Of a stretch of 64,000 bases of DNA, positions 9,453 to 54,872 are shown piece after piece. Source of the stretch: Saccharomycopsis phalli. Taxonomy: Eukaryota; Ascomycota; Saccharomycetes; Ascoideales; Saccharomycopsidaceae. The notes beneath the pieces were generated by a model. The model made no database searches and was not told the origin of the DNA. It saw nothing but the letters and a program-made list of their open reading frames with translations. Each line of letters starts with the position of its first letter. The stretch's first letter is position 1. The DNA lies in assembly GCA_020342235.1 (NCBI GenBank), contig CP073212.1, positions 1,550,001-1,614,000 on the forward strand, given 5' to 3'. A program made the translations under genes and the position numbers.

Positions 9453-10994
9453 TTATTTTGTCAAATGCTTTTCCACCAACCCACGCTCCCGAATCGCTGC
9501 AATAACACTGGTATAACTCCAAGTAAGACTCTTTGCACCTTCAGAGTAACCGTTGATCCTATTAAACTGCTCGCTCAAATGGCCATCGTTTGTCACGTGG
9601 CTGAGAATCGTCTTCAAGAATGTGTCACCAAACGCAAATATTCCATGCACCGCCTTATCAAACGATGACGAGCAGTATTCCAACACTATAAACTGCTTGT
9701 ATTGGTAGCTAGGGTCTACTGTAGCTAAATCTATAATGACGTCGTTGAAGAATGCATAGTTTTCGCGGAAAATCACAAAATGGTGCTGGTTGTGCAACAA
9801 ACGGTACAATTTTCGGTAGAAAAATAGCGCAGCGTAGCCGTTGGAAAGAAACCACGGATTGGCAAATGAAACTCCAACACCATCGTACTTGTCGTTTGGA
9901 TATCGTCCCAAGCTGATGCCCACTTTTCCTTGCTCCTGGTTGAGTGGGTACGTCGAGTTTTGGTTCTGAATAAAAGCATACAACGAATTAAGTACGTACG
10001 AGTCGTCGACATCAAATGGGATTCCAGCAACTTCGTTATCGATATCGTTTGACTGTGCGTGGGTGATCAACGAGCCAATCACCGTAGCGATGTCCAACCC
10101 ATATTTGAACCCAACGGCGGGGTTCTCACTTACTCTATTCAAGTCATGGTCAATGAATCCAGACTCGACTTCTATAAAATGCAAAATCCTCGTTGACGTG
10201 CGAAGAAGCTGCTTTGCGAAATGAAAGTCGCCAAACTGTTGCGCCTGGAACACTCCCTTTTTAAGAGCCTTCAACTGCACGAGTGACGTGAAAAAATGGT
10301 GGCCCTTATGCTCCTCCCATAGATCAAATCCCGGCTCGTGCCAATACTTGAGGATATATGTCAAGTCTGGTTTGATAATGCCAAAGTAAATGTCGGCGGT
10401 GGTATTAAAGAACACTGCGGGGTCGTTTCCCAAGAGAACATTACCATGGTTGTATTTGTTGACCAAATTTATATAGTTCATCAACGTCGTTGCTCGGAGA
10501 GCTGGCCCGTCGTTTTGTGGCCGGCCCCAGTTGCTGGTGAAGGCGGTATTGTCGATCTCAAACTTTGGCTCGCCCAAACCCCTCAAGTCCGGCGAAAATT
10601 TACCAGAGGGGTTATCTGTGCGCTGCAATACGTAGTTGTTGCTGATATAGTACTCGACCTGGCGGGCAATTGTGGTGTTTGTGTACCCGATATCGTTCAA
10701 GAGTGTCACGAGCGAATTCACCGTGAGCGCCGAGTCTCGGGTCCACGTGTAATAATAGTTTGGCTGGTTGGTGGACGGCGACGCGATGACAACTCCAGGA
10801 CTTAGCTTTGGGTCGGTGCTTGTGCCTCCAATGTTTTCCAAGATATAATCCACCGAGATTTGTGGCTGTATCACGAGCCAAGCGTGGAAATCGTTGCGGT
10901 TGATCCCGGGGGCCTCAAACGGCCTGGAAAGCACATTCTGGCTTGGAATCCAGAAGGCATTTGCTAGAGCGAGTAGAAACACAAGCAAAATCAT
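9453..10994 (-). CDS. Secreted glucoamylase (GH15), no starch-binding domain
   Basis: 513 aa with a signal peptide (MILLVFLLALANAFW). It is a complete GH15 catalytic (alpha/alpha)6-barrel domain: YTWTRDSAL near 82-90 (substrate-binding region), WGRPQNDGPALRA near 156-168, general acid Glu227 in DLWEE, and general base Glu475 in LSEQF, followed by LTWSY. It should release glucose from non-reducing ends of starch and related glucans outside the cell or in the vacuole. Length matches yeast glucoamylases made of the catalytic domain alone; no CBM20/CBM21 is seen. Several N-x-S/T sites fit a secreted glycoprotein. The ATG at 10994 is fixed by the signal peptide and the TATA box about 27 bp upstream. 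Confidence 0.94.
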   Translation of the reverse strand: MILLVFLLALANAFWIPSQNVLSRPFEAPGINRNDFHAWLVIQPQISVDYILENIGGTSTDPKLSPGVVIASPSTNQPNYYYTWTRDSALTVNSLVTLLNDIGYTNTTIARQVEYYISNNYVLQRTDNPSGKFSPDLRGLGEPKFEIDNTAFTSNWGRPQNDGPALRATTLMNYINLVNKYNHGNVLLGNDPAVFFNTTADIYFGIIKPDLTYILKYWHEPGFDLWEEHKGHHFFTSLVQLKALKKGVFQAQQFGDFHFAKQLLRTSTRILHFIEVESGFIDHDLNRVSENPAVGFKYGLDIATVIGSLITHAQSNDIDNEVAGIPFDVDDSYVLNSLYAFIQNQNSTYPLNQEQGKVGISLGRYPNDKYDGVGVSFANPWFLSNGYAALFFYRKLYRLLHNQHHFVIFRENYAFFNDVIIDLATVDPSYQYKQFIVLEYCSSSFDKAVHGIFAFGDTFLKTILSHVTNDGHLSEQFNRINGYSEGAKSLTWSYTSVIAAIRERGLVEKHLTK

Positions 10995-12247: not shown

Positions 12248-13905
12248 TCAAACATCTTTGCCAGTACCAAAAATCGTACTATCACCTGGAATAACAACTT
12301 TTTCTCTTGTAGATTCTGTCACTGGAACTGCCACTGCTAATCCAATTTGGGGAGTTTCATTGTCAAAATAGACATATGAAGCTTTCATAAATGGCACACC
12401 TAACAATATATCGTTTGATTGAAGAAAGGAAAGCATAAACAAACACTGCCCTTTGTATTTAGGAAACAGCTCTATTTTCAAGAGATCAGGCAGAACATCG
12501 ACAGAATACGTACCAAAGTCAAATTTCATATTCCCAATGCCACTTCCATCACAGGCACTAAAGGTGAGCTTGTTTACAACTTCCACCATAAAATCCTTTT
12601 TATACTCTTCAGGGAAAAAAATTGAATTGGCACCAGTATCAATGGGAACCCTAACTGGGGCAAGAAATTTTTTATTAATCTGTTTACCGCTTATGGAAGT
12701 CAAGGGTAATTGCAAGTACCCCTCAGGATTCTTGATAGCAGGCAACATCGTCAAGGGTCCTTTAAATCGGTTTGTGTCTACTCCCCCAAAGACAATCTGT
12801 CCACTATATTCACCATAGTCATGGTTCATATGGATTCCGTACGATTGCCGCTTTATATAACCTGAATTCTGTAATATTTGTACTATATCTGGATGGCTCA
12901 GCAGAGGGCGTCCCGGACCCAAGCCTATAATACCATAAGTACAACCAGAAGTAGGGGCAGGAGGTTTGGCCGAATGGAAAACACCTCATGCCTTATGGAG
13001 GGCGCATCATGAGGTAGTTACCGGGTTCGAGCCCCACCAAACCGCCCCAATACTCAAGAAAGTCTCCAGAAAGAGCACACTACGCCTCAGAAGGGCAATA
13101 CAAGGAAGTCTCGCAAACGAGCAATGAACGACCCCGACGAGTCGTGCGCCCATCGTCACGAGATTCAGCGGCCGGATAGCGCCGGCATTTAGCCGAAGGA
13201 TGGCCAGGCTTCTCGCATAACCAATAGCCAGTCACGTTAAACCACTAACAACACTGCTCCCATTGAAGTTTTTCAGCCCATATAACCGTTTAGGGTTATA
13301 AAGGGTTTTCTTCAATAGAATGCTGCCTCAGGATGTTCCTGAGTGAAAATATATCTGTCGAATCACCGTGTTTCCGGAGACAATATATAGCTAAATACAG
13401 AACTAAATATACTTATCTTACTTATCTTACAACCAGAAGTTAAGGCCGAGCCAAATATAGCAGGTAATAATATAGCCGATCCAAGAACCATAGTATCCTT
13501 ATAATATGATCCCTCGGTTTTGTCACCGTCGTAGTATGTTATAGAAAACCTTCGGCCAGGTACAATTTCTCCTGAAGAGGACTTCTCCGGATCGTACATG
13601 TATATAGGGGATATAAGATCATTCAAACTACCTCCGATGTGGTTGGTTCTCGGTGTGGGGAACCATGTCTCCTTTGACCCGGTGTCGTAAAGTGCTTCTA
13701 GAACCTGATTACCAACTTTAATAGTTGTTCGTGGAGTATTACTTCTATTATCAAAATAATCAATTACATAGCCGACTTTTTCGCCCATTATTTGCCCCGC
13801 TCGACTTCTGGTTTTTGGTGCTCGTTTTCCAAGTGGTGTATCAGCTGAATTCGATGACGCTGAAAAGACATGGCTGAAGGTAATGAAAAATAATATTAGT
13901 TGCAT
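12248..13905 (-). pseudogene. Secreted aspartyl protease gene split by a SINE-like insertion
   Basis: The 5' half (ATG at 13905) encodes a signal peptide, a propeptide with a KR site (PLGKRAP), the first catalytic motif (LYDTGSKETWFP) and the flap region (ITYYDGDKTEGSYY). The 3' half (12248 to about 12939) encodes GIIGLGP, the second catalytic motif (PIDTGANSIFFPEEY) and a normal C-terminus ending FGTGKDV. Between them sits the element at 12953-13427 with one extra 13-bp duplication. Outside the insertion both halves stay collinear and in frame with the intact paralogues, and both catalytic aspartates survive. The disruption therefore looks recent. Without that insertion it would be an ordinary fifth member of the array. 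Confidence 0.88.
12953..13427 (+). mobile_element. SINE-like element: tRNA-like head plus LINE A-related 3' end
   Basis: 475 bp flanked by a perfect 13-bp duplication TACAACCAGAAGT (12940-12952 and 13428-13440). The head carries a Pol III A box TGGCCGAATGG (12967-12977), as in Leu/Ser tRNAs, and a B box GGTTCGAGCCC (13024-13034). Its ends pair (GGTTTGG 12963-12969 with CCAAACC 13037-13043; GGGGC 12954-12958 with GCCCC 13044-13048). A unique body runs to about 13159. From 13160 to about 13410 the sequence is related to the 3' end of LINE family A (GAGATTCAGCGG ... CTGCCTCAGGATGTTCCTGAGTG ... AATATATAGCTAAATACA). It ends in a short repeat (ACTTATCTT twice). Only one copy is in the window, so family status is inferred from structure. 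Confidence 0.78.
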
Positions 13906-14000
13906 GAGTTATTGTGATGAAGTGGACCAGTATTTATGTGATTTATTGTGGGATCCAAAAAGTTTTTAGGGTACTTTCATGCCTCATACGCCCTGGAATG

Positions 14001-14014
14001 GTGCCGTGAAATGC
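14001..14014 (-). promoter_or_regulatory. Conserved upstream element of the split protease gene
   Basis: GTGCCGTGAAATGC on the plus strand (GCATTTCACGGCAC in gene orientation), 96-109 bp before the ATG at 13905. The same 14-mer occurs at 88-106 bp before the ATG of all four intact paralogues. Confidence 0.6.
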
Positions 14015-14046
14015 CTAACGCTGCAATTTTTGAATGATATTGCAAC

Positions 14047-14299
14047 TGTAATATAGTAGTGACTAAGATACGTATTGATAAGATAGTTAGTATATATTCG
14101 CTTGACCTATTTAGGAAGCGAGATTAGCTATATAAGTGGCGACGGAGTCAGGAAAGGAGAGACGTAAGCGTACGGCACTGCTGCCTTAGAATTGCCTCAG
14201 CTGGTCAAAGGAATGTGTTTAGGGTAATTATCTAATACTAATCGTGGGAGTTCGAGTCTTGTATCAGAAAGAATTAAGGTAGGTACGGACTTTATTACA
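14047..14299 (+). mobile_element. Solo LTR, family 1
   Basis: 253 bp with inverted termini TGTAATA ... TATTACA, an internal TATATAAG promoter-like box and a related copy at 18701-18945. Flanking 5-mers agree only partly, so it looks old. No internal retrotransposon genes are attached. Confidence 0.75.
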
Positions 14300-14329
14300 A
14301 CTACCCTTGTTATGTAAAATGGTATGAAA

Positions 14330-15012
14330 TCTGACTACCGACTCATTACACGACGATACGCCGAAGCCCAATTCAAGTGACTACTGATAAGTCAACATTA
14401 CTACTTTCAGAGGCACTAGTTGGGCCCAAACGAGCACTAAGCAAAATCAGCCAACTCCTTAGCGGCCAAAGCCTAGCCTCACATAAAACTAAGACTTTAT
14501 TCAATGCCGAAGCGAGCCCATCATGCAGCATATGTGAGGATGCTGCACCATCTATTTTTCACGACTTCACATGCCCGATACTCTTGGACTCTCGAGCCCA
14601 AGCATAGATTCCGGAAGGAATTACCAATGCTACTCAAGCCCGTGTCTTATTCTCAGATAAGGCGAAGCTTAAAAATCTTATAGGATTCTACTCGTCGGTG
14701 CTGGACCGGTAGTTTTTTTTTTTCCTTTTTTGTTACAGCACGTTAGGAGGACTACCGAATTAGTACCCTGGGGAGGGGGTGGTGAAAGCCACCTCTAAAG
14801 ATCTAGGCGAAAAACTCATTGCCCCTCCAATGCTCATTACCTTACATATTTACAAGCTCTGATCGAAAGTTTTTTATCTCTGTTGCAGAGTTTTCTTTCG
14901 ACGACTACATAGCAGCACCGTCCTTAGTCGTAGACGGTGAAGTATAAATCTCCTCTAGGAGCCTAGTATAGCTATAACCTTAAATAAATATTATTATTAT
15001 TATTATTATTAT
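14330..15012 (+). mobile_element. LINE family B, 5'-truncated 3' end
   Basis: Encodes the last part of ORF2 (LPTHYTTIRRSPIQ, LLLSEALVGPKRAL) with the C-x2-C-x8-H-x3-C knuckle typical of LINE C-termini (CSICEDAAPSIFHDFTC). A stop codon interrupts the frame after SRAQA, and the C-terminal tail resumes beyond it (GFYSSVLDR). The 3' UTR ends AGCCTAGTATAGCTATA and (ATT)n. From about 14626 it is a near-perfect inverted repeat of 15081-15462. Confidence 0.85.
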
Positions 15013-15080
15013 AGCCAAGGCTTTACTCTCAATTGCGTGCATATAATATCAGGGTCTCTAACCAGCAGTACCACTTTACA

Positions 15081-15468
15081 TAATAATAATATATTTATTT
15101 AAGGCTATAGCTATACTAGGCTCCTAGAGGAGATTTATACTTCACCGTCTACGACTAAGGACGGTGCTGCTATGTAGTCGTCGAAAGAAAACTCTGCAAC
15201 AGAGATAAAAAACTTTCGATCAGAGCTTGTAAATATGTAAGGTAATGAGCATTGGAGGGGCAATGAGTTTTTCGCCTAGATCTTTAGAGGTGGCTTTCAC
15301 CACCCCCTCCCCAGGGTACTAATTCGGTAGTCCTCCTAACGTGCTGTAACAAAAAAGGAAAAAAAAAAACTACCGGTCCAGCACCGACGAGTAGAATCCT
15401 ATAAGATTTTTAAGCTTCGCCTTATCTGAGAATAAGACACGGGCTTGAGTAGCGTTGGTACCTTCAGG
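15081..15468 (-). mobile_element. LINE family B, inverted copy
   Basis: Minus-strand copy with its (TAA)n tail at the left. It is almost identical to 14626-15012 in inverted orientation across a spacer of about 70 bp, including variants that the B copies at 27294 and 63463 lack. Its truncated 5' end abuts the TAA tail of the next LINE at 15469. Confidence 0.85.
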
Positions 15469-16205
15469 AATAATAATAATAATAATATTTATTTCTGTAT
15501 TTAGCTATATATTGTCTCCAGCGATACGGTTATTCGACAGATATATTTTCACTCAGGAACATCCTGAGGCAGCATTGCTGTTGAAGAAAACCCTTTGTGA
15601 ACCCTCACTTGGTTCCATGGGATTAAAAATGACGTAGTTAATAGTATCGCCTGAATTAGACATAGTATTATGTGAACTATAAACTACTTAATTATTTGTT
15701 TTGTTCCTTTAGGATTTGGATAACCGGATTGGACTTTGCTAGATATAATGTCTAGCTGAACTGTTCAGTTGAATTGTGTGTTCTCTAAGAAGGGAACCCC
15801 TCCTTATATAGACTTTCTCCATCTCTTATCAGAATATTATCTTCCAATAATATCAATTCCAATATAACTGGAATTGGAGTATTCAGTCTTATCAACACCG
15901 GGAGTCGGTAATGTTCTTACCGACACCGACGTCGCACAGGTGAAATTATTCTGCAGTGGTTGTTAACCACGACAAAAAACTTCAATGGGAGCAGTCATAT
16001 TGTTGGTACTTAAAGCTTGTATTGGTTGTGTAAGAAGCCTGGTCACTCTTGTTGTCGAATGTGACCGCTGAATCTCATTATGTGTTGGAGGAATCATATT
16101 CCAACACGTTCCGGTAGAACTCAAGGAGTTTGTGGATTGATTTTTGGTCGGCAAACACTTTTCCAAGCGTATTGCGTATGCCATGAGTGGAATCTAGTAT
16201 GTCAT
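15469..16205 (-). mobile_element. LINE family A copy interrupted by a solo LTR
   Basis: Tail (TAA)n at the left, then the family A 3' UTR and the end of ORF2 up to about 16205, where it abuts the TAA tail of another family A copy. Split by the family 2 solo LTR at 15630-15974; the A sequence GGGATTAAAAACTTCAATGG continues on both sides. Confidence 0.82.
15630..15974 (+). mobile_element. Solo LTR, family 2, inside a LINE A copy
   Basis: 345 bp with TG...CA ends, flanked by AAAAA on both sides (5-bp duplication of the host LINE sequence). It contains a TTATATAGA promoter-like box. Related copies lie at 22354-22695 and 56476 onward, with an end fragment at 27259-27293. It is younger than the LINE A copy it splits. 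Confidence 0.8.
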
Positions 16206-16978
16206 CAATGCGTGATAGTAATAATAATAATAATATTTATTTTTGTATTTAGCTATATATTGTCTCCGGCAATACGGTTATTCGACAGATATATTTTCAC
16301 TCAGGAACATCCTGAGGCAGCATTGCTGTTGAAGAAAACCCTTTGTCAACCCTCATGCGGTTGCCTGGGATTAAAAACTTCAATGGAGGCAGTTATATTG
16401 TTGGTGCTTGGTGCTTGTATGGATTGTGTAAGAAGCCTGGTCACTCTTGTTGTCGAATGTGACCGCTGAATCTCATCATGTGTTGGAGGAATCATGTTCC
16501 AACACGTTCTGGTAGAACTCAAGGAGTTTGTGGACTGATTTTTGGTCGGCAAACACTTTGCCAAGCGTATTGCGTATGCCATGAGTGGAATCTAGTATGT
16601 CATCAATGCGCGATAGAATTCGAGCTTCTAGGAGCTCTGGACATCGTAGGTCATGTATGATGGAGGGGGAGTGAATCCCGCATCTTTTGCACTTTGGGTC
16701 GTCATTGCCAAATAGTTTGAGCAACAAGCCGTCTGTGAGGCTCTTTCCGCTGAGTAGTTGTGATGCCATACTGAGGATTGCCTTGGGGCCTGCAAGCGCT
16801 TCCGTGAGGATGAGCTTGGTTTTGTCTCGGTGCACTTTGATCGGGCTGGTGCTAATTTTGCGTGCGTTCCTATAGTGGTTTGGGAGTGATTCACTGGTTG
16901 AGGTGACCATTTCCTGCCACTCTTTGATTGCCGTGTCTGAGGCCATTTTCTTGAGCATCTGGATGCGGGATAAGTGCT
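16206..16978 (-). mobile_element. LINE family A, ORF2 C-terminal part and 3' UTR
   Basis: The open frame 16476-16958 (160 aa) covers the end of ORF2: MASDTAIKEWQEMV, LTEALAGPKAIL and the knuckle CKRCGIHSPSIIHDLRC, ending LEFYQNVLEHDSSNT. The 3' UTR runs left to a TAA tail at 16206-16223. The reverse transcriptase part is missing (5' truncation). Confidence 0.88.
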
Positions 16979-16984
16979 TAAATA

Positions 16985-17070
16985 AATGGCTTCAGAGCAA
17001 GCCACCAAAGAATGGCAGGAAGCGGCCACATTGTGCAATGATGACCTCCCAAGACTATACAGTACAAATA
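16985..17070 (+). mobile_element. Short LINE ORF2 fragment, opposite orientation
   Basis: Reads MASEQATKEWQEAATLCNDDLPRLYS, clearly related to the MASDAATKEWQEMV segment of LINE A but diverged. It lies head-to-head with the minus-strand copy at 16206-16978. Confidence 0.6.
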
Positions 17071-17229
17071 AACTGACATAAAACGGTCATTCTTTTAAAT
17101 TTTTAATCTCTATATTAATATTTTGTGAATTGACCTGTTGAAATAAAACCAGTTCACAAACTTCAAAATCTCAGACTCTCTTCTTCACCAGAATGATGAG
17201 TTCTTCCCACTTTGATTATTATTAGTTTG

Positions 17230-18435
17230 TCAAACATCTTTGCCAGTACCAAAAATAGCACTAAAACCTTGAGTAACAACTTTTGTTCTTATTGGTTTTG
17301 TCACTGTAACTGCCTTTGCTAATCCAATCCGAGGTTTCTCATTGTCAAAATAGACATAATAAGTTTTCATAAATGGCACGCCTAAAACTATCTCATATGC
17401 TGACACAAAGGAAAGCATAAACAAACACTTTCCATTGTGTTTAGGATGTGACTCTACTTTCATAATATCAGGCAGAACAGTGACAGAATACGTACCAAAG
17501 TCAAATTTCATATTCCCAATGCCACTTCCATCACATGCACTAAAGGTGAGCTCGTTTACGATTTCTATATCAAAAGCACTTTTATACACATCAGGAAAAT
17601 AAATGCAATCGCCTCCACTATCAATGAGAACCTTAACCGGGGCAAAAATTTTTTTATTGAACCGATCACCGCTTATGGAATTCAAGGGCATTTCCAAGTA
17701 TCCAGCAGGATTCTTGGTAGCAGGCAACATCATCAAGTGTCCTTTAAATCGGTTTGTGTCTACTCCCCCAAAGACAATTTGTCCACTATTTTCACCATCG
17801 TCATGGTTCATATGGATTCCGTATGATTGCAGCTTTATATAACCTGAATTCTGTAATATTTGTACTATATCTGGCTGCGTTATGTCAGAGGCTCGTGGAC
17901 CTAAGCCGATGATGCCACGCCAATTACGGGTTTTTGAGGCTGATCCAAATATAGCAGGAGATAATACAGCAGATCCAAGAATCATTTGGTCTGTATAATA
18001 CGTTCCTGAGGCTCCAGATCCGTCATGATATGATTCCTTAAATCCCGGGTCAGACACAATTTTTTCTTTAGAAGTGGACTTTTCTGGATCGTAAATGTAT
18101 CTTGCATATAAAGAACTCTTCCGCAGACTTTCTTGCTGAGTGACCTTTTCAGAAGACAGCTTTGGGTCTTTGTAGGCACCTGGTTGGGGGAACCATGTCA
18201 AACTTGATCCAGTGTCGTAAACTGCTTTCACAACTTGATTACCAATTTTAATAGTTGTTCGCGGGTTATTATTTCTGTTGTCAAAATAATCAATCACATA
18301 ACCGACTTTTTGACCCACTATTTGCCCCGCTCGACTTCTGGTTGGTGGAGCTCGTTTTCCAAGTGAACTGTCCGGTGAATTCAATGACGCCGAGAAGACA
18401 TAGCCGAAGGTAATGAAATATAATATGAACTGCAT
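17230..18435 (-). CDS. Secreted aspartyl protease (family A1), array copy 2
   Basis: 401 aa from the ATG at 18435. Signal peptide (MQFILYFITFGYVFSA), short propeptide ending at a Kex2-type site (SSLGKRAP), then a pepsin-like fold. First catalytic motif VYDTGSSLTWFP, flap SYHDGSGASGTYYTDQM, IIGLGP, GQIVFGGVD, second catalytic motif VLIDSGGDCIYFPD, and a C-terminal YYVYFDNEKPRIGLAKA. Family knowledge predicts an extracellular acid endopeptidase matured by a Kex2-like protease. There is no GPI signal, so it is probably released. It ends FGTGKDV like the split copy; copies 3-5 end FGTG. Confidence 0.92.
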   Translation of the reverse strand: MQFILYFITFGYVFSASLNSPDSSLGKRAPPTRSRAGQIVGQKVGYVIDYFDNRNNNPRTTIKIGNQVVKAVYDTGSSLTWFPQPGAYKDPKLSSEKVTQQESLRKSSLYARYIYDPEKSTSKEKIVSDPGFKESYHDGSGASGTYYTDQMILGSAVLSPAIFGSASKTRNWRGIIGLGPRASDITQPDIVQILQNSGYIKLQSYGIHMNHDDGENSGQIVFGGVDTNRFKGHLMMLPATKNPAGYLEMPLNSISGDRFNKKIFAPVKVLIDSGGDCIYFPDVYKSAFDIEIVNELTFSACDGSGIGNMKFDFGTYSVTVLPDIMKVESHPKHNGKCLFMLSFVSAYEIVLGVPFMKTYYVYFDNEKPRIGLAKAVTVTKPIRTKVVTQGFSAIFGTGKDV

Positions 18436-18523
18436 CAATTAATGATGAAGCAGGCCAATTATTTTATTATTTATATTGACTTGAAAGACGTTGGATATTT
18501 TTAAGCCTTATACGCCTTGCATA

Positions 18524-18537
18524 GTGCCGTGAAATGC
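18524..18537 (-). promoter_or_regulatory. Conserved upstream element, protease copy 2
   Basis: GTGCCGTGAAATGC (plus strand), 89-102 bp before the ATG at 18435, between a TTTTTAAGCC block and the distal promoter. Confidence 0.6.
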
Positions 18538-18700
18538 ATGTTGCAGCAAATGGTGAAAATAACTGCAGTCCAATAAATAATCATGATTCTCATAAATAGC
18601 TACTATGCCTAATACATGACCATTGAAACTAGGGCTATGTTTGATTGAACGCATGTAATATCCTAATATGGCACTACTATGTTACGAAGTACACTATAGG

Positions 18701-18945
18701 TGTAATAAAGTCCGTACCCACGTTAATTCTCACCGATACAAGACTCCACCTCCTATGATTATAATTAGAGATTTACCCAAAACAAATTCCCTAGACCATT
18801 TAACACACCATTAAGACATCCGTGCCTTACGTCTTGGTCTCTCCTTTCCCGGCTACTCGCCATTATATAAAACCTACCCTGTTCCCAAATAGGTCAAGCA
18901 AATATATTCTATCTTATCAACACCTATCTTAGTTGCTATATTACA
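18701..18945 (-). mobile_element. Solo LTR, family 1
   Basis: 245 bp, inverted relative to 14047-14299 and clearly related along its length. Termini TGTAATA ... TATTACA; flanking 5-mers ATAGG and ATTGG agree at four of five positions. Confidence 0.78.
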
Positions 18946-18959
18946 ATTGGCAACATAAA

Positions 18960-21551
18960 CATAATAATAATATTGTAGATTAATTCCAACTAGTCAGGGA
19001 AGGTGATTCCCTACCAAAGCTCCCCCTAATTGGGCCAACGGTGAGTTGGTCAGAACCCTGAGGCTTTTTTGAACCTGAAGTACTGGATAGTGTTGAATAT
19101 TTCCTCCTTCATTATCGGTTCGATGTCGTTCCAACGAGTGTAGTACGGTCAAAATGAAACCAACGTGAGGCTCTCGCCCACAGTAATTTGCGGGTAAAAG
19201 GCTTTGCCAAAGGCTTCATGTTGTTCCTTGTACAGTTTCATCATTGTGTGACGCTTCGCTAGACATGCGTACTTGTAAGAGGCCTAAATAGTGGCGTGAT
19301 CTAGCTTCAGTAGTAAATCGTTCCAACACTTGGATTTAGCTGTGCTAATAGTTTCATGGAAGGCCTGCTGAGCATTGATCTGTTCAGCATCCTTAACTTG
19401 TTGAATGAACTATCTCTTTGAACAACTCTTCACTAGTTTCATTGGGGTATTCTGGCCAATTAGATCCCTTAGAGTCCGAGTCAACTTGGCGGATGTCACG
19501 TTAAACTCATACTCTGTGTGTAATCTGCTTGTAAATCGGCTCTTGTCTAGTGTTGCACGTACCTTTTGACCAGTCCATTTTAGAGTAGTTATGTACCGTT
19601 TTTTGCTTTATATTGTTGGACATGTCTGGAGAACGGATTGATACACGATACCGAAGTGGTCGGATCCAAATTTCCAGAGCTTTAGCATCGGTGTTACCTG
19701 TCTCTCCGACTTGTCACTGATTAACATAACAATGAAAGAACGCCGATTCCTGTGCGTGGGCTTGTCTATAATACTGACGCATTGAAGTTTTACCATTTCC
19801 ATCATGTCATTTATCCTCATTGTGACTTTCCCTGCTTCTAAATCTACTATGCTGTGCGATGTGAACGCAAAATGTGCGGTATTGATGTTACACATTATGA
19901 TTCCATGGAAAGTTTCCTGTTTTTCTATCACATATTTTCTCGCTAGTTTCGACAACCGGGACTTGAGGTTTGCCTTGGAGTCGTGCAGTCTTCTGGACTA
20001 ACAATATTACTGCCGAGATTTTGTAATGGTCAAGGGCCATATCGAGATGCGACGTTCTTTTCTGAATGTTGATTGATATTATTGTAATCTTCATTATAAA
20101 ATAGTATAGCTAGAGTCACTGTGAGAAGCCAACTGAGTTCGGTTTGACCGTAATGTGTGTCGCGTTGTCGATCTTTTATCAATAACTAAATAAATCTCTA
20201 TTATGTACTAGGTTCTTTTGGACAATAAGTCAACTGGATGTTTACTTGTGGCGTTTTGGGTCTCTTATGCGCTGGGCTGTGCATTAGAAGCAGGAGGTAT
20301 TAAAACTGATGGGATTCAGTGGAGTCACGGCTTTCATGTGGATATCTTGGGGGCTCTCTAATGGGGGTCAAGATGAGTCCGCTTCTTATTGTTGCGGCTT
20401 GTCTTGTATTTTCCGAGTCTGTAGATTATTCCCATGATGCAATAGAGTTGTTGTGATGCGAATTTCGCGGTTGCCTCATCTGGGAAGAATAGTCGAGCTG
20501 AGTAGTACTTCTCGTCTTCTAGAGGAATTTCAGACCAGTCTGGTAGGTCTTCTGGTCGCATGAGTGGCTGTGGCGCCAAGCACAAGACTTCTCCTTCCCA
20601 TTTTTCGCGTTTGACGACTCTGGTAATTTCTTGGGCTACTCTGTTTGGAGGGAAGAATGTTGGAACTCCTCGGATGACTCGAGAGACCAGAGGCCTGGTG
20701 CTGAGGGGCCCTGGTGATCTTAGAGCTTTTTGAAGTTTTAACTTGTTTTCTTCGGATAGGGGCTCATTGAGGTGGACCCTAAAGTGGTGAGCCTGGGTGA
20801 GGGAGATCATCTTAATCTTTCGATCGGATTGATCCACGATGATCTTGGAATCGATTTCAAATTGCACGCGTTTTGCACCATCCCACGCTCTGCTTTGAGG
20901 GTTGACGTAATAGATCAATTTTCCTGCAATTTCTAGGTCTTTGCTAGTTGGTGTTGGTGCACGAGTTTTGGTTCGTGTGGTGGTTTTTGGTGAAGTGGTT
21001 TGGCCACGTTTTGGTGAGGTGGTTTGTGGCTTTAAGAAGTCATGGTCGGTTTGGATATACTTAATAGCTTCCTCTAGTCCAGCTTCTTGGAGGAGAGTCG
21101 TTGTTTCAGTATTGAAACAGGCAGAGATGCGCTCGATTGCAATGGTGAACATTCTGTGGGCTTCATTAACGTCTTGAGCCCCGTCCTTGATTGAGTATTG
21201 TGAGTTGCCAGTTTGGGAGGGGTGGGCGGTTTCGCAAGGTTGGATAAGCGTTTGTTGGAAGTTTTGGCGATTCCAAGTTTGTGAAGGTGGCGAGTTTTCA
21301 CGTACTGGTGTGGAATATCCGCTTTTTTCGTCTTGTGAGAGGACAGTTTCGTCCCCATCGGCGAGAACATAAACTTTTGGGACATGGAGGTTGGGTTGTC
21401 TTAGTGGTGTCCCGGTGACGTTTGAATTAATTTCATTGGGCCTAATGGGTTCTCCTTGAGAATCTATTCGGTTTTCTGTTGTTTGGGGCCCTGATTGGTT
21501 ATCCAGAGGTTCATACTCATTTCGTGTTTCTCCAAATTGGAAAGAATTCAT
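18960..21551 (-). mobile_element. 5' portion of a LINE: ORF1, endonuclease and start of RT
   Basis: Read on the minus strand: ORF1 (21551-20358), a gap of about 260 bp, then a decayed endonuclease region. It starts near 20094 (ITIISINIQKRTSHLDMAL) and has a terminal SDHFGI motif near 19650. Next come fragments like the linker to RT domain 1 (KKASG ... LELIYN) near 19080-18970, where the element stops. The ORF2 part lies in several frames and is dead; ORF1 is open. It meets a plus-strand LINE C 3' end at 21552, suggesting a 5'-inverted insertion. It is the only LINE 5' region in the window. Confidence 0.72.
20358..21551 (-). CDS. LINE ORF1 protein (RNA-binding, Gag-like), intact frame
   Basis: 397 aa. 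The N-terminal half is low-complexity and Gln/Thr/Ser/Pro-rich. The middle is basic, with TSPKRGQTTSPKTTTRTK-like runs. The C-terminal region holds GVPTFFPPNRVAQEITRVVKR and SARLFFPDEATAKFASQQL, which look like an RNA-binding fold of LINE ORF1 type. No CCHC knuckles are seen. The assignment rests on position: the next thing on the same strand is an endonuclease-like ORF2 start. If the element is related to families A-C, this would be the RNA-chaperone protein of the particle. An unrelated host protein is the less likely alternative. Confidence 0.65.
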   Translation of the reverse strand: MNSFQFGETRNEYEPLDNQSGPQTTENRIDSQGEPIRPNEINSNVTGTPLRQPNLHVPKVYVLADGDETVLSQDEKSGYSTPVRENSPPSQTWNRQNFQQTLIQPCETAHPSQTGNSQYSIKDGAQDVNEAHRMFTIAIERISACFNTETTTLLQEAGLEEAIKYIQTDHDFLKPQTTSPKRGQTTSPKTTTRTKTRAPTPTSKDLEIAGKLIYYVNPQSRAWDGAKRVQFEIDSKIIVDQSDRKIKMISLTQAHHFRVHLNEPLSEENKLKLQKALRSPGPLSTRPLVSRVIRGVPTFFPPNRVAQEITRVVKREKWEGEVLCLAPQPLMRPEDLPDWSEIPLEDEKYYSARLFFPDEATAKFASQQLYCIMGIIYRLGKYKTSRNNKKRTHLDPH

Positions 21552-22272
21552 TGTATAGATGGCAGGCCCTGCATGGACGAAGAAAATGGGTCCTTAAACA
21601 CGAAGATGACCAAGGAATGGCAAAAGTCAGTGGTCATGGTAATATTGCTCTCCCAGCCCACTATAGAACTCTACGTCGAACGGATTCACCGGTGGTTACA
21701 ACTACCAAAAATAAACTTTTACTCTCTGAGGCCTTAGCTGGCCCAAAGAAAATTTTAAGACTAATCAGTCAACTTCTAAGTGGAGAAAGCTTAATATTAA
21801 GCACCATCAAGAAACAGTTTAACCCTGAAAGCGATCCCAAGTGCTCTAGGTGTGACAATCCCTCCCAAAAAATCTTCCATGATCTATCATGCCCATGTTT
21901 AGAGGTATTCCAAAATCGGGAAATAATAAGCAAAGGCCTCATAACCAAAACACACATTCGCCGTCTCTTCACAGACCTAAAATTAGTTCATTTCCTTATA
22001 GGATTCTACACATTAGTGTTGGATGGGTAGTTTTTTTTTACAGCGTCGCAAGGGCGGTAATGAAAGTAGTCTCTCCGGGGGCAAGACTCTATAGTTCCTT
22101 CTGAGTCATCTCTCTTCAGTAGTTCCTTAAAGATTAAGTCGAAAGTTTTTATCCTCATTCAAAGAGTTTCTCTCGACTCCAAAATTAGCGGCGCCGTCCT
22201 TAGTTTTTTAGACGGTGAAATATCAATCTCACCCTCCGGGGGAGCCTAGTATGCTATAGAAGCAAATAAACA
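21552..22272 (+). mobile_element. LINE family C, ORF2 C-terminus and 3' UTR
   Basis: Encodes TKEWQKSV-like, HYRTLRRTDSPV, LLLSEALAGPKKIL and the knuckle CSRCDNPSQKIFHDLSC, ending GFYTLVLDG at 22030. The upstream part is in a different frame. The 3' UTR carries GGAGCCTAGTATGCTATAGAAG and ends AAATAAACAT. The right flank is the 3' flank of the next protease gene. Confidence 0.82.
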
Positions 22273-22353
22273 TATTGATACTTTGTAGATTGACCAATTG
22301 AAATAAAACCAGTTCACAAATTTCAAAATATCAGGCTCTCTTCTTTACCAGCA

Positions 22354-22695
22354 TGTCGTGGTTGACTAGCCACTGCAGAATAGGTCCAGTATTCTAAGAG
22401 GAGTTCGGAGTAGCTTACCAGACTCAACCACAGAATACAGTAGCATATCCACTGATCAATAGTAACCACCATCTGATTAAAGGACTACAACATTTTAGGA
22501 GAACCGGCATTCTCTATAAGAAGGCCGACATTTCGCTGCAAATATAACGATCACAAGACCAATTCAGCTGGATATCTTTATCTAGCAAAATCCAATCCGG
22601 TTATCTAAATCCTAAAGGAACAAAACAAACAATTAAGTAGTTTATAGTTTGCTGTAATTATATGACTATTCAGGGTACACCTATAAACTACGATA
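22354..22695 (-). mobile_element. Solo LTR, family 2, in the 3' flank of protease copy 3
   Basis: About 342 bp, inverted relative to 15630-15974. It sits within the conserved TTCTTTACCAGAAAGATGAG flank seen uninterrupted at 27800, with near-matching 5-bp flanks (CAGCA/CAGAA). Confidence 0.75.
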
Positions 22696-22746
22696 CAGAA
22701 AGACGAGTAATATGCTACTTTGATTATTATTAGTTTGTCCAATATC

Positions 22747-23943
22747 TTAGCCAGTACCAAAAATAGTACTATCACCTGGAAGAACAATTTTTTCTCTTGT
22801 AGATTCTGTCATTGGAACTGCCTCTGCTAATCCAATTTGACGTTTCTCATTGTCAAAATAGACATATGAAGCTTTCATAAACGGTACGCCTAGATTTATA
22901 TAAAAATTTTTCAGAAAGGCAATTGCAAATAAACACTGCCCTTTGTTTTTATAATGTGGTTCCATTTTTAAGAGATCAGCCAGAACATTAACAGAATGTG
23001 CGCCAAACTTAAATTTCAAATTCCCAATGCCTGACCCATCGCAGGCGCTATAGGCAAGCCCGTTTTCTATATTCACCCTGAAAAGATTTTGATAGTCATC
23101 AGGTAAAACAATCATATTGGTGCCACTATCGATTTGAACATTAACCGGGTCATCATCAAACTTTTCATTAATCCGATCACCGCTTATTCCATACAACGGC
23201 AATTCCAAGTACCCATCAGGATTCTTGGTAGCAGACAACATCGTCAAGGCTCCTTTAAATCGGTTTGTGTCTACTCCCCCAAAGACAATTTGTCCACTAA
23301 ATTCGCCATAGATACGGTTCATATGAATTCCGTACGATCTCCGTGCAATATATTTTGATTTCTTTAATTGTTGTACTATGTCAGGCTGCGTGTGGTCGGA
23401 GGCATGTGGACCCAAGCCAATAAGGCCATACATATCATTGGTTTGTTTAGCCGAGCCAAATATAGCAGGGGATAATACAGCCGATCCAAGAACCATTGTA
23501 TCTTGATAATAGTCTCCTGAGGCTGTAGAATCGTCATGGTATGATTCATCAAATCCTGGGTCAGTCACAATTATTGCTAAAGGCGAGAAATGGGGATTGA
23601 AACTGTACTCCTTGTATACATCACTATTCCACGGACTTTCTTGCTGAGTGATTTTTCCATAAAACAGCTCTGGGTCTTTGTAGGCGCCTGGTTTGGGGAA
23701 CCATGTCAAACTTGATCCGGTGTCGTAAACTGCTTTTACAACTTGATTACCAATTTTAATAGTTGTTTGCGGAAGATTATTTCTGTTGTCAAAATAATCA
23801 ATCACATAATTGTCTTCTTTGTCAACTATTTGCACCACTCGACTTTTGGCTCGTGGTGGTCGTTTTCCTATTTGTGTATCAACTGAATTCAATGACGCTG
23901 AGAAGACATGGTTGAAGGTAATGAAATATAATAAAAACTGCAT
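22747..23943 (-). CDS. Secreted aspartyl protease (family A1), array copy 3
   Basis: 398 aa from the ATG at 23943. Signal peptide, propeptide with TQIGKRPPRAKSR, first catalytic motif VYDTGSSLTWFPKPG, flap SYHDDSTASGDYYQDTM, second catalytic motif VQIDSGTNMIVLPDDY, and C-terminal SYVYFDNEKRQIGLAEAV. Its N-terminal block (KRPPRAKSRVVQIVDKEDN) is shared with copy 4 rather than with copies 2 and 5. The tandem minus-strand neighbours and shared promoter motif indicate one co-regulated family of extracellular acid proteases. Variation around the flap and the second loop suggests differing substrate preference. Confidence 0.92.
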   Translation of the reverse strand: MQFLLYFITFNHVFSASLNSVDTQIGKRPPRAKSRVVQIVDKEDNYVIDYFDNRNNLPQTTIKIGNQVVKAVYDTGSSLTWFPKPGAYKDPELFYGKITQQESPWNSDVYKEYSFNPHFSPLAIIVTDPGFDESYHDDSTASGDYYQDTMVLGSAVLSPAIFGSAKQTNDMYGLIGLGPHASDHTQPDIVQQLKKSKYIARRSYGIHMNRIYGEFSGQIVFGGVDTNRFKGALTMLSATKNPDGYLELPLYGISGDRINEKFDDDPVNVQIDSGTNMIVLPDDYQNLFRVNIENGLAYSACDGSGIGNLKFKFGAHSVNVLADLLKMEPHYKNKGQCLFAIAFLKNFYINLGVPFMKASYVYFDNEKRQIGLAEAVPMTESTREKIVLPGDSTIFGTG

Positions 23944-24031
23944 CACTTAATGATGATATAGGACTATAATTGAACTATTTATATTGATTTGAAAGACGTT
24001 GGATATTTTTAAGCCTCATTCACCTTACGTA

Positions 24032-24045
24032 GTGCCGTGAAATGC
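24032..24045 (-). promoter_or_regulatory. Conserved upstream element, protease copy 3
   Basis: GTGCCGTGAAATGC (plus strand), 89-102 bp before the ATG at 23943. Confidence 0.6.
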
Positions 24046-24057
24046 AGGCTGCCGTAA

Positions 24058-24300
24058 ATTTGAATCCTGAGACAGCATTACTGTTGAAGAAACCCCATTG
24101 GAAGGCCTTATGCGGCTGGTTGGGATTAAAAACTTTGACTAGTGCAGTTCTATTGTTGATACGTTGTGGTTGCCCTTGTTATCAAGGTTGGCCACTGAAT
24201 CTCATCATGCTTTGATGAGATTCAGCGGTCACATTCGACAACAAGAGTGACCAGGCTTCTTACACAATACATACAAGCACCAAGCACCAACCACTAGAGC
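24058..24300. mobile_element. Opposed LINE A fragments upstream of protease copy 3
   Basis: A minus-oriented 3'-UTR fragment (24058-24215, no tail) is followed by a plus-oriented fragment starting GATGAGATTCAGCGG. The minus fragment recurs at the same place upstream of copy 4 (25918-26065), so it was duplicated together with the protease unit. Confidence 0.7.
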
Positions 24301-24601
24301 CACGCACGAATCATCAGAGCCATGCCACTCAAAGTGCAGCATTTCATTATCATACTCCCAGAAGATACTAAGAAACTTGGAAAAAACAGTGCACTCAAGT
24401 GGCATCAGTCACAAGTCTCACGCTACAGTACAGCTAAAATGACCTACAACCGGCGTTTAAAATTTTAATCTGTATATTGATACTTTGTAGATGGACCAAC
24501 TGGAATAAAACCAGCTCACAAATTTCAAAATCCTAGACTCTCTTCTTTACCAGAAAAATGAGTAATATGCCTCTTTGATTATTATTAGTTTGTCCAATAA
24601 C

Positions 24602-25795
24602 TTAGCCAGTACCAAAAATAGTACTATCACCTGGAAGAACAATTTTTTCTCTTGTAGATTCTGTCATTGGAACTGCCTCTGCTAATCCAATTTGACGTTT
24701 CTCATTGTCAAAATAGACATATGAAGCTTTCAAAAATGGCACACCTAGATTTATATATGGTGGATCCACAAAGCCAATTGCAAACAAACACCGCCCGTCC
24801 TGATTAGGTCCCGAGCCTACTTTCAAGAGATTAGGCAGAACATTGACAGAATATACACCAAAGTCAAATTTCAAATTCCCAATGCCCGACCCATCACAAG
24901 CGCTATAGGAGTGTCCGTTCACAGTTGTTATGTCAAAACTACTCTTATACTCTTTAGGTAAATAAATAGAACTGGCTCCAGTATCAATGGAAACTTTAAC
25001 TGGGTCATCAAACTTTTTATTAATCCGATCACCAACAACGCCAAACAAGGGCAATTGCAAGTACCCATCAGGATTCTTGGTAGCAGGCAACATCGTCAAG
25101 GCTCCTTTAAATCGGTCTGTGTCTACTCCACCAAAGACAATTTGTCCGCTAAATTCACCATAGATATGGTTCATATGAATTCCGTACGATCTCCGTGTAA
25201 TATATTTTGATTTCTTTAATTGTCGTACTATGTCTGGCTGCGTGTGATCGGAGGCTTGTGGACCCAAGCCGATAAGGCCATACGCACTATTGGTTGCATC
25301 GGCCGAGCCAAATATAGCAGGAGATAATGCAGCCGATCCAAGAACCATTGTATCTTGATAATAGTCTCCTGATGCTGCAGCATTGTCATAATATGATTCC
25401 TTAAATCCCGTAACCTCCATAATCCTTGCTAAAGGGGAAAAATAGGGGTCAAAATTGTATTCCTTGTATGCATAAGCACTCTGCAGATTTGCTTGCTGAG
25501 TGGCTTTTCCATTTGACAGTTGTGAGTTTCTTAAAGCTCCTGTTTGGGGGAAGTACGTCAAACTTGATCCGGTGTCGTAAACTGCTTTTACAACTTGATT
25601 ACCAACTGTAATAGTTGCTCGCGGGAGATTACTTCTGTTGTCAAAATAATCAATCACATAATTGTCTTCTTTGTCAACTATTTGCACCACTCGACTTTTG
25701 GCTCGTGGTGGTCGTTTTCCTATTTGTGTGTCAGCTGAATTCAATGACACCGAGAAGACATAGCTGAAGGTAGTAAAAAATAATAGTAGCTCCAT
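24602..25795 (-). CDS. Secreted aspartyl protease (family A1), array copy 4
   Basis: 397 aa, ATG at 25795. Signal peptide MELLLFFTTFSYVFS, propeptide TQIGKRPPRAKSR, first catalytic motif VYDTGSSLTYFPQTG, flap SYYDNAAASGDYYQDTM, second catalytic motif SIDTGASSIYLPKEY. From about residue 55 to near the C-terminus it is almost identical to copy 5. Its first 50 residues instead match copy 3 and its last 25 are those of copy 3. This mosaic points to gene conversion or unequal exchange within the array. Role as for copy 2: extracellular acid protease. Confidence 0.92.
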   Translation of the reverse strand: MELLLFFTTFSYVFSVSLNSADTQIGKRPPRAKSRVVQIVDKEDNYVIDYFDNRSNLPRATITVGNQVVKAVYDTGSSLTYFPQTGALRNSQLSNGKATQQANLQSAYAYKEYNFDPYFSPLARIMEVTGFKESYYDNAAASGDYYQDTMVLGSAALSPAIFGSADATNSAYGLIGLGPQASDHTQPDIVRQLKKSKYITRRSYGIHMNHIYGEFSGQIVFGGVDTDRFKGALTMLPATKNPDGYLQLPLFGVVGDRINKKFDDPVKVSIDTGASSIYLPKEYKSSFDITTVNGHSYSACDGSGIGNLKFDFGVYSVNVLPNLLKVGSGPNQDGRCLFAIGFVDPPYINLGVPFLKASYVYFDNEKRQIGLAEAVPMTESTREKIVLPGDSTIFGTG

Positions 25796-25887
25796 GAATC
25801 AGTAATAAAATAGGCCAATTATTTTATTATTTGTATTGTCTTGAATGAAGCTTGTTTGATATTTTTAAGGCACATTCGCCCGAGGTA

Positions 25888-25901
25888 GTGCCGTGAAATG
25901 C
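25888..25901 (-). promoter_or_regulatory. Conserved upstream element, protease copy 4
   Basis: GTGCCGTGAAATGC (plus strand), 93-106 bp before the ATG at 25795. Confidence 0.6.
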
Positions 25902-25917
25902 AGGCTGCCGTAAATTT

Positions 25918-26065
25918 GAATCCTGAGGCAGCATTGCTGTTGAAGAAAACCTTTTGTCAACCCTCACTTGGTTGCTTGGGATTAAAAACTTTGACTAGTG
26001 CAGTTCTATTGTTGATACGTTGTGGTTGCCCTTGTTATCAAGGTTGGCCACTTAATCTCATCATG
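25918..26065 (-). mobile_element. LINE A 3'-UTR fragment co-duplicated with the protease
   Basis: Nearly the same as 24058-24215, including the private words TTGACTAGTGCAGTTC and TGATACGTTGTGG, at the same distance from the protease promoter. Confidence 0.7.
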
Positions 26066-26237
26066 CTTTGATGAAATACTAGATTCCACTCATGGCATAC
26101 GCAATACGCTTGGAAAAGTGTTTGCCAACCAAAAATCAGTCCATAAACTCATTGAGTTTTACCAGAACGTGTTGGAATATGATTCCTCCAACACATGATG
26201 AGATTCAGCGGTCGCATTCGACAACAAGGGTTTTCTT

Positions 26238-27097
26238 AATAATAATAATAATATTTATTTTTGTATTTAGCTATATATTGTCTCCGGCAATACGGTTATT
26301 TGACAGATATATTTTCACTCAGGAACATCCTGAGGCAGCATTGCTGTTGAAGAAAACCCTTTGTCAACCCTCATGCGGTTGCCTGGGATTAAAAACTTCA
26401 ATGGAGGCAGTTATATTGTTGGTGCTTGGTGCTTGTATGGATTGTGTAAGAAGCCTGGTCACTCTTGTTGTCGAATGTGACCGCTGAATGACGTAATCTA
26501 GCAGATCCTTATGGCATCCATATCTTCTATTATAGATAATTCATCTTCTTGTTACTATACTAGCTATTTCCTGTCCTATTTATATTCTTTCTGAGATGCC
26601 TTCAGTTATCTTTATCTCATGACATCATTATTAGTATGACCTCATATTATTATCAGTTCACTATTAGTATGACCTGATAACTTTATTAGATTGCTAATAC
26701 TATGACCTCATACTCTTAATATACTATAAACAGTATGATATCATGGTACTGAAGGATTGCTATTTCTCAATACCAGCTTATTTATCATGCATGATGTATA
26801 TCACCATGCATTAACTCCTTCAACACTTTCAGCACTTTCAGCAATCTCTAGGATTTTCGACATCTTCAACATTTAATCTCTCAGATCTTCGACATCTTCA
26901 ACACTGAATCTCATCATGTGTTGGAGGAATCATGTTCCAACACGTTCTGGTAGAACTCAAGGAGTTTGTGGACTGATTTTTGGTCGGCAAACACTTTGCC
27001 AAGCGTATTGCGTATGCCATGAGTGGAATCTAGTATGTCATCAATGCGCGATAGAATTCGAGCTTCTAGGAGCTCTGGACATCGTAGGTCATGTATG
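26238..27097 (-). mobile_element. LINE family A (-) nested in another LINE A
   Basis: TAA tail at the left, 3' UTR, and ORF2 end up to the CATGTATG truncation at 27097. A perfect 12-bp duplication AAGGGTTTTCTT flanks it (26226-26237 and 27098-27109). It is itself split by the solo LTR at 26489-26903. Confidence 0.85.
26489..26903 (-). mobile_element. Solo LTR, family 3, inside the nested LINE A
   Basis: 415 bp with TG...CA termini and a perfect 5-bp duplication CTGAA (26484-26488 and 26904-26908). It contains TATAAATAGG in element orientation. Related copies at 56036 and 61755 also have perfect 5-bp duplications, so the family looks young. Confidence 0.87.
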
Positions 27098-27203
27098 AAG
27101 GGTTTTCTTTAACAGCAATGCTGCCTCAGGATGTTCCTGAGTGAAAATATATCTGTCGAATAACCGTATTGCCGGATACAATATATAGCTAAATACAAAA
27201 ATA

Positions 27204-27259
<56 letters not shown>
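27204..27259. repeat. (TTA)n microsatellite, LINE A tail
   Basis: About 18 uninterrupted TTA units, the longest LINE tail in the window, at the end of the plus-strand LINE A. Confidence 0.9.
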
Positions 27260-27261
<2 letters not shown>

Positions 27262-27293
27262 TGTGAACTCTTCTGCAGTGGTTGTTAACCACG
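27259..27293 (+). mobile_element. Terminal fragment of a family 2 LTR
   Basis: Ends TTCTGCAGTGGTTGTTAACC followed by ACGACA, like the 3' end of 15630-15974, wedged between a LINE A tail and LINE B sequence (GCTACTCAAG). Confidence 0.65.
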
Positions 27294-27665
27294 ACAGCTA
27301 CTCAAGCTTGCGTCTCTTTCTCAGATAAGGCGAAGCTTAAAAATCTTATAGGATTCTACTTGTCTGTGCTGGACCGGTGGTTTTTCCCTTTTTTTTTTTG
27401 GTTACAGCACATTAGGAAGGGCTACCGAGTTAGTACCTTAGGGAGGGGGTAGCTAAAGCCACCTCTAAAGATCTAAGCGGAAAACTCATTGTCCCTCCAA
27501 TGCTCATTACCTCACATATTTACAATCTCTGGTTGAAAGTTTTTTATCTCTGTTTCAGAGTTTTCTTTCGACGACTATATAGCAGCACCGTCCTTAGTCG
27601 TAGACGGCGAAGTATAAATCTCCTCTAGGAGCCTAGTATAGCTATAGCCTTAAATAAATATTAAT
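27294..27665 (+). mobile_element. LINE family B 3' end
   Basis: From GCTACTCAAGCTTGCG through the family B 3' UTR to AGCCTAGTATAGCTATAGCC and TTAAATAAATATTAATT. More diverged from the 14626/15081 pair than those two are from each other. Confidence 0.82.
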
Positions 27666-27855
27666 TAAAAAAGAAAAATCAGTATAGCTAAAATGACCTA
27701 CAGCCGACGTTTAAAATTTTAATCTGTATATTGATACTTTGTAGATTGACCAACTGGAATAAAACCAGCTCACAAATTTCAAAATCCCAGACTCTCTTCT
27801 TTACCAGAAAGATGAGCAATATACCTCTTTGATTATTATTAGTTTGTCAAACATC

Positions 27856-29049: not shown

Positions 29050-29137
29050 AATTTAATGATAATATAGGACTATAATTGAACTATTTATATTGATTTGAAA
29101 GACGTTAAATGTTTTTAACACTCATTCGCCTTGTGTA

Positions 29138-29151
29138 GTGCCGTGAAATGC
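29138..29151 (-). promoter_or_regulatory. Conserved upstream element, protease copy 5
   Basis: GTGCCGTGAAATGC (plus strand), 89-102 bp before the ATG at 29049. Confidence 0.6.
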
Positions 29152-29200
29152 AGGATGCCGTAAGTTTTGAATACTGCGTGGCAATCCCATAAATATACAT

Positions 29201-53405: not shown

Positions 53406-53703
53406 TGGCGTCACATAGTGATAAGTTAGTCAGCTGTTCTGAGTTATGTTGAATATACAATACACTGAGGTTTTGGTATTTGGTACTTTAGCGAATTGTA
53501 AAATCTAACAAGCTTTGGAACCTGTCTTGTCAAAAAACTTGGTTTACTTTAGTTAGTTTTTCGTTACCCTCATCAGTCAGAAACTGATTGTTACACAGAG
53601 TTGAAGCTATGAATTTATTATTTGTTAGCTATGCAAATAGAGAACCGAAGTTCTAGTTAGACAGGTACCTCTGAGTAATGTTATGGTCTTCCAGGCGTAC
53701 ATT

Positions 53704-54366: not shown

Positions 54367-54396
54367 CAGTTTACCAACTACTATGTTGCACAGTGG

Positions 54397-54404
54397 TTTA
54401 TATA
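54397..54404 (-). promoter_or_regulatory. TATA box, unknown protein copy A
   Basis: TATATAAA within the 16-bp word AAATACTATATAAACC, identical to that of copy B; 31 bp before the ATG at 54366. Confidence 0.6.
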
Positions 54405-54864: not shown

Positions 54865-54872
54865 TATATAAA
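54865..54872 (+). promoter_or_regulatory. TATA box, unknown protein copy B
   Basis: TATATAAA within AAATACTATATAAACC; 39 bp separate it from the ATG at 54911. Confidence 0.6.

Follow-up and report, generated by a model that had tools for sequence, protein, structure and literature searches.

Few parasites of animal and plant genomes are as common as SINEs, but the way SINEs hijack the LINE machinery is difficult to approach by genetics. The sharing of tails by SINE-LINE pairs has been reviewed, and the excerpted review names as fungal pairs Mg-SINE/MgL from Magnaporthe and SINE2-1_BG/Tad1-24_BG from Blumeria (PMC3747384). For zebrafish LINEs of the stringent type, the LINE protein was shown to bind a 3′ stem-loop, according to the excerpt of that study (PMC4176376). 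Among the closest described elements is AfuSINE2-1a of Aspergillus fumigatus, which in the available part of the report has a tRNA-related head and a 3′ part like the 3′ UTR of the resident LINE I-1_AF (Tad1/I group); target duplications of 4 to 14 bp are reported there for AfuSINE2 elements (PMC5063351). Chimeric retrogenes are a further fungal product of LINE activity: the excerpted Magnaporthe study counts 33 bipartite chimeras involving WEIRD, Mg-SINE, and MGL and one tripartite chimera with 14-bp repeats (PMC2104539). Among budding yeasts, the LINE Ylli of Yarrowia lipolytica is described as L1-type, with poly(A) and with target duplications not identified; the non-LTR section of the Yarrowia genome paper, as excerpted, describes no SINE and goes no further than a speculation that LINEs may spread Pol III genes (PMC5014426). 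A search of the literature on SINEs and LINEs in yeasts and fungi, in a collection that covers the smaller part of the subscription papers, gave no SINE described from Saccharomycotina among the matches listed.

Here we describe an insertion in a 64-kb stretch of DNA from the budding yeast Saccharomycopsis phalli (the whole of this stretch is termed the window herein). We read it, with a probability of roughly 0.7, as a tRNA-headed SINE of a budding yeast that is mobilized in trans by LINE A, a non-LTR retrotransposon resident in the same window. An earlier note made from the sequence had marked the insert at 12953-13427, and its presence is confirmed. The features of the insertion site are the following.

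12248 to 13905, minus strand: host gene, aspartyl-protease-like, split by the element
12940 to 12952, plus strand: target-site duplication, left copy TACAACCAGAAGT, a perfect 13-bp repeat
12953 to 13427, plus strand: inserted element, 475 bp, antisense to the host gene
13428 to 13440, plus strand: target-site duplication, right copy TACAACCAGAAGT

The perfect 13-bp duplication that had been claimed to surround the whole element is present on both sides, and it abuts the element exactly at the head end and at the tail end. In the whole 64-kb window, TACAACCAGAAGT occurs twice on the plus strand and not at all on the minus strand, and the chance of a 13-mer repeat lying within 2 bases of both ends of an independently recognized element is, by simple arithmetic, about 25 in 67 million. 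Reading is open in the host gene from its ATG at 13905 to the insert and again beyond the insert as far as the stop at 12248; with 475 + 13 bases subtracted, both halves share one phase. Four protease paralogues (24602-25795, 27856-29049, 22747-23946, and 17230-18438) are uninterrupted and collinear across the insertion site, so that the collinear gene halves of the earlier note stand as well. Pfam family PF00026 was found in the two paralogues scanned, 17230-18438 and 27856-29049; the assignment covers these two. The region is crowded with LINE A pieces and paralogous proteases, a setting in which a local duplication or a misassembly could have made both the flanking repeat and the insert; since the repeat sits exactly at the head and tail ends and the gene halves are open and in phase, we consider this origin extremely improbable.

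The surroundings of the split gene hold at least five aspartyl-protease paralogues on one strand (12248-29049, the split gene included), with many LINE A fragments in their spacers. The protease encoded at 27856-29049 has five PDB matches at an E value of up to 1e-15, every one of them carrying the name SAP, candidapepsin, or aspartic proteinase. For the glucoamylase at 9453-10994, the closest PDB entry is 1ayx, Glucoamylase GLU1 (424 bits, with nine other matches at 178 to 202 bits), which we take to be a Saccharomycopsis glucoamylase, and the nearest PDB chains of the MCM3 in the window are presumably those of S. cerevisiae. These nearest solved structures make a Saccharomycotina host likely, though by indirect evidence. 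Two ORFs, 51813-53405 and 57123-58742, are paralogous (82% identical DNA) and appear F-box/leucine-rich by eye; Pfam gave no match for ORF 51813-53405.

The 5′ portion of the element consists of a tRNA-like head followed by a body.

12953 to 13048, plus strand: tRNA-like head with complementary ends; relaxed ARAGORN structure at 12963-13046
12967 to 12977, plus strand: A box TGGCCGAATGG, beginning at the 15th base of the element
13024 to 13034, plus strand: B box GGTTCGAGCCC, a match to the consensus pattern
13049 to 13156, plus strand: body of about 108 bp, unmatched elsewhere in the window

The A and B boxes are 46 bp apart, as had been noted, and a scan of both strands of the 64-kb window with the degenerate consensus patterns brought up no other pair. 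In 20 first-order Markov sequences as long as the window, scanned on one strand each, the mean was 0.0 such pairs, or 0.05 if one mismatch in the B box was permitted. An A box about 15 bp into the element lies where it should if Pol III starts at the first base, and a spacing of 46 bp suits a tRNA with a long variable arm. The head is tRNA-like at most: besides the two boxes, ARAGORN at a 50% threshold (-ps50) finds a degenerate 84-nt tRNA-like structure at 12963-13046, but neither ARAGORN with default settings nor Rfam at an E value of up to 1 found a tRNA in the head. The claimed 12-bp pairing of the head ends can be read from the sequence as GGGGC/GCCCC plus GGTTTGG/CCAAACC (5 + 7 bp, with a 4-nt bulge), whereas the lowest-energy fold pairs this region somewhat differently. 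The head thus appears to have retained a promoter without a clean tRNA fold, as propagated SINEs do.

BLASTN against the 64-kb window returned no second copy of the head (best E value, 2.2) and no other copy of the body (best E value, 0.74), in line with the description of the body as unique; the copy-number evidence is that of the 64-kb window, with one head and one body. Head and tail patterns had no matches in viral contigs, a collection not expected to hold yeasts, and a 34-mer of the tail had none in prokaryote genome contigs, where yeasts are not expected either. An 18-mer of the head had 9 matches in bacterial metagenome-assembled genomes; simple arithmetic on 257 billion bases, both strands counted, predicts about 7.5.

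A single copy in the 64-kb window is also what a one-off chimeric retrogene would leave, and this is the main rival to the SINE reading. While copying a LINE A RNA, the reverse transcriptase would have left the LINE 3′ UTR for one or two further RNAs, among them a Pol III transcript containing A and B boxes; insertion of the fused cDNA would then have produced the 13-bp duplication, and there would be no propagating family. Such chimeras are documented in the excerpted Magnaporthe paper (PMC2104539). Several features of the element fit this origin less well: the head is degenerate as a tRNA and yet has kept both promoter boxes, and a third, unmatched body lies between head and tail. Moreover, the LINE sequence at the join is without the Magnaporthe GCC*A/T switch motif, although another LINE need not share that motif. 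On balance we judge a chimeric origin unlikely, at something like one chance in five; the tail, considered below, bears on it in both directions.

The LINE A sequences of the window that carry the comparison are listed here.

16219 to 16969, minus strand: LINE A copy c16215, with the ORF C terminus and the full 3′ UTR
29316 to 29328, plus strand: target-site duplication of the following LINE A copy, left, AAATGGGTAGAAA (13 bp)
29329 to 30234, plus strand: LINE A copy, 5′-truncated, with the ORF C terminus (29500-29982), the 3′ UTR, and a (TTA)n-type tail
30235 to 30247, plus strand: target-site duplication of that copy, right, AAATGGGTAGAAA (13 bp), perfect
62341 to 63304, plus strand: LINE A coding remnant reaching further 5′, containing LGITLDSRLSFSSHL, frameshifted

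LINE A copies have their 3′ end in common, have variable 5′ ends, and carry (TTA)n-type tails; seven copies reach the 3′ end. A duplication at both sides was found for one of the seven 3′ ends tested, that of the copy at 29329-30234, and the homology of this copy to the longer remnant (62824-63304) begins at 29327, the duplication junction. This copy bears a 13-bp duplication, which shows that LINE A can insert with one, like the SINE. Of the other six 3′ ends, two fell among LINE-to-LINE matches, one lay off the window edge, and three gave nothing convincing. Long matches at c16215 and c26235 were rejected as duplications, being LINE-to-LINE similarity; c27094 gave only ATT-repeat matches among the matches listed, c30560 gave one 10-mer, and c63876 extends beyond the window edge. 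A local search for duplications at c16215, c27094, c15470, and c30560 found none.

We take LGITLDSRLSFSSHL to be reverse transcriptase thumb-like and, together with a C-terminal Cys/His motif, to be a feature of Jockey/I/Tad1-type LINEs. Searches for domains and structures lent this no support. With stops read as X and an E value of up to 1, Pfam had no match in the six frames of 14000-17230, 18438-22747, and 53405-57123 or in the three plus-strand frames of 61000-63320 and 29000-30240, and at an E value of up to 10 three ORFs gave two weak, unrelated matches. The reverse transcriptase-like remnant had no PDB match at an E value of up to 10, and the AlphaFold model of the 197-aa remnant, made without an alignment, was unusable (pLDDT, 35). 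Two LINE protein fragments gave 8 peptide-pattern stretches each in viral contigs, none of which was confirmed by tblastn.

Other repeats lie among these copies. An (ATT)18.7 array at 27204-27259, at the end of a LINE A copy, is an unusually long 3′ tail. A near-palindrome at 14608-15471 (93% over 872 columns) abuts a LINE A 3′ end, and pieces related to it adjoin LINE A tails at 63463-63875 and 27297-27663, so that LINE A and the near-palindromic second repeat seem to be associated. In the repeat-rich part, 20358-21551 contains an ORF of 397 aa that had no Pfam match and is possibly a LINE ORF1.

The 3′ portion of the element is related to LINE A along its length.

13157 to 13416, plus strand: tail, a homologue of the LINE A 3′ UTR that starts just past the stop codon and includes the 3′ end
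13410 to 13427, plus strand: 3′ terminal tandem repeat, two TACTTATCT units

The tail spans the whole LINE A 3′ UTR: its start (about 13157-13160) corresponds to a point 1 to 3 nt after the LINE A stop codon, and the match extends to the end of the LINE. The terminal (TACTTATCT)2 repeat of the element differs from the (TTA)n of LINE A. There are 10 other places in the window that match the tail at an E value below 1e-5, seven of which reach the LINE 3′ end and three of which are internal pieces; the best matches are 81.5% over 222 columns (E value, 2e-53) and 93% over 117. Against copy c16215, 191 of 241 ungapped columns are identical (79%), and the LINE A-related 3′ end of about 250 bp announced in the earlier note is thereby upheld for the entire 3′ UTR. 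Identity to c16215 is uneven along the tail: the 5′ part has 88 identical columns of 132, whereas the 3′ part has 103 of 109 (Fisher P value, 5e-8), and the last ∼110 columns of the tail match LINE A at 94%. Strong conservation of the 3′ part is as expected if the enzyme reads the terminal part of the tail. The same gradient exists between the LINE copies c16215 and c15470 themselves (107/110 in the 3′ part and 36/45 in the 5′ part; P value, 8e-4), and the uneven divergence is therefore also a property of the LINE family.

In the 3′ part, LINE copies differ from each other at 1 to 6 of 110 columns, the old copy c30560 standing apart with 19 to 23. In the 5′ part, copies c16215, c29980, and c26235 are identical, and others differ from c16215 at 9/45 (c15470), 26/108 (c25918), 29/108 (c24060), and 11/106 (c15973) columns. 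The 5′ part of the SINE tail is 33% different from c16215 and 30 to 42% different from every comparable LINE copy in the window, which makes it the most diverged branch seen in this part, with some LINE pairs similar (c15470 versus c24060, 18/45). Single-base variants are common to the tail and individual LINE copies (GAATCACCG with c63876 and ACAGAA with c15470). For the chimeric retrogene, the divergence of the 5′ part means that none of the LINE copies in the window supplied the tail. The divergence nevertheless counts only mildly against such an origin, since LINE subfamilies also diverge there: the 3′ UTR subfamilies of the window differ by 20 to 27% in the 5′ part (c15470, c25918, and c24060 versus c16215), so that an unseen subfamily could have donated the tail, and a donor from a LINE subfamily outside the window is quite possible. 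This divergence among LINE subfamilies raised our odds for the chimera and lowered those for the SINE, which remains the preferred reading.

Two features within the tail concern its recognition and its transcription.

13263 to 13316, plus strand: predicted compound hairpin, outer TTGAAG/CTTCAA and inner AACC/GGTT, also predicted for c16215
13269 to 13273, plus strand: TTTTT run, a possible internal Pol III terminator

In their lowest-energy folds, the SINE tail and c16215 share the compound hairpin and a 7-bp CUCAGGA/UCCUGAG hairpin. The 5′-cut copy c15470 retains the inner part of the compound hairpin and the second hairpin; c25918 and c24060 stop before the second hairpin is closed and adopt other folds. 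The compound hairpin is thus predicted in full in two of the five folded sequences and the 7-bp hairpin in all three rows that reach that far. Read by hand, one inner pair varies between T-A (SINE), C-G (c16215 and c25918), and G-C (c15470), while c24060 does not keep it; these changes are suggestive and fall short of statistical proof, and RNAalifold on 11 tail rows, many of them truncated, gave a weak result (8 pairs, none of them with both partners changed).

Pol III of budding yeasts can stop at T runs of about T5 length, and at the TTTTT of 13269-13273 and a second run, TTTT at 13306, it may stop before the tail is read. The T5 run is awkward for the SINE reading for this reason and would call for read-through or another polymerase. 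It would be at home in a non-autonomous element that derives from another LINE subfamily, relies on Pol II for its transcription, and has A and B boxes that are fortuitous or vestigial; head and body could then represent the 5′ UTR of a LINE subfamily not seen here, and the failure of default tools to call the head a tRNA would be in keeping. Against this derivation, which we regard as quite improbable, stand the A/B pair, which has no second in the window and would not be expected to arise by chance, and the position of that pair relative to the element start, which is suitable for Pol III initiation.

Under the preferred reading, a SINE mobilized by LINE A, the A and B boxes would direct Pol III to start at or near the first base (12953), and the transcript would end in a relative of the LINE 3′ UTR with the compound hairpin, the second hairpin, and the short-repeat end. 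The LINE A reverse transcriptase would recognize this RNA end ("stringent" recognition), the LINE A endonuclease would nick the target, and the RNA would be copied by target-primed reverse transcription, leaving the 13-bp duplication. The link between SINE and LINE is strengthened by the perfect 13-bp duplication of the LINE A copy at 29329-30234 and by a tail that is predicted to fold like the best-preserved LINE 3′ UTR. The proposal that a SINE layout is served by LINE A as its mobilizer keeps its layout, its LINE tail, its LINE-type insertion, and a duplication of the same length on a LINE A copy, whereas the use of the LINE A enzyme, like Pol III transcription, multiplicity, and recent activity, is inferred. 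That this is a bona fide, recently active stringent-type SINE-LINE pair in Saccharomycotina whose LINE resembles Tad1/I and not L1 has in our view an even chance. If the reading is right, a natural SINE with its partner LINE in a budding yeast would be a compact system for tail recognition, Pol III dependence, and target duplication, budding yeast would become a possible genetic system for SINE mobilization, and the range of fungal SINEs would be extended from filamentous species to yeasts.

The layout is already known from filamentous fungi, and what is likely to be new here is the budding yeast, an unusual host group. To the extent that the excerpted papers describe the known systems, the element resembles AfuSINE2-1a in its tRNA-related head, its LINE-like 3′ part, and the short tandem repeats at its 3′ end; it differs in having two boxes that match the consensus and a budding yeast as host, whereas AfuSINE2-1a belongs to a filamentous ascomycete, ends in ACT repeats, and has boxes described as degenerate (PMC5063351). 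With Mg-SINE/MgL and SINE2-1_BG/Tad1-24_BG it has in common, by description, a tRNA head and a tail shared with a LINE (PMC3747384). Like the Magnaporthe chimeras as excerpted, it joins a non-LINE 5′ part to a LINE 3′ end, and the tripartite chimera has 14-bp direct repeats; those chimeras, however, consist of known transcripts joined by template switching to LINE 3′ pieces of 230 to 5461 nt, whereas the tail here is the 3′ UTR alone and is diverged from the LINE copies of the window (PMC2104539). LINE A, for its part, is like Ylli a LINE of Saccharomycotina with 5′-truncated copies and, unlike Ylli as characterized in the excerpt, ends in (TTA)n and has one copy with a 13-bp duplication (PMC5014426).
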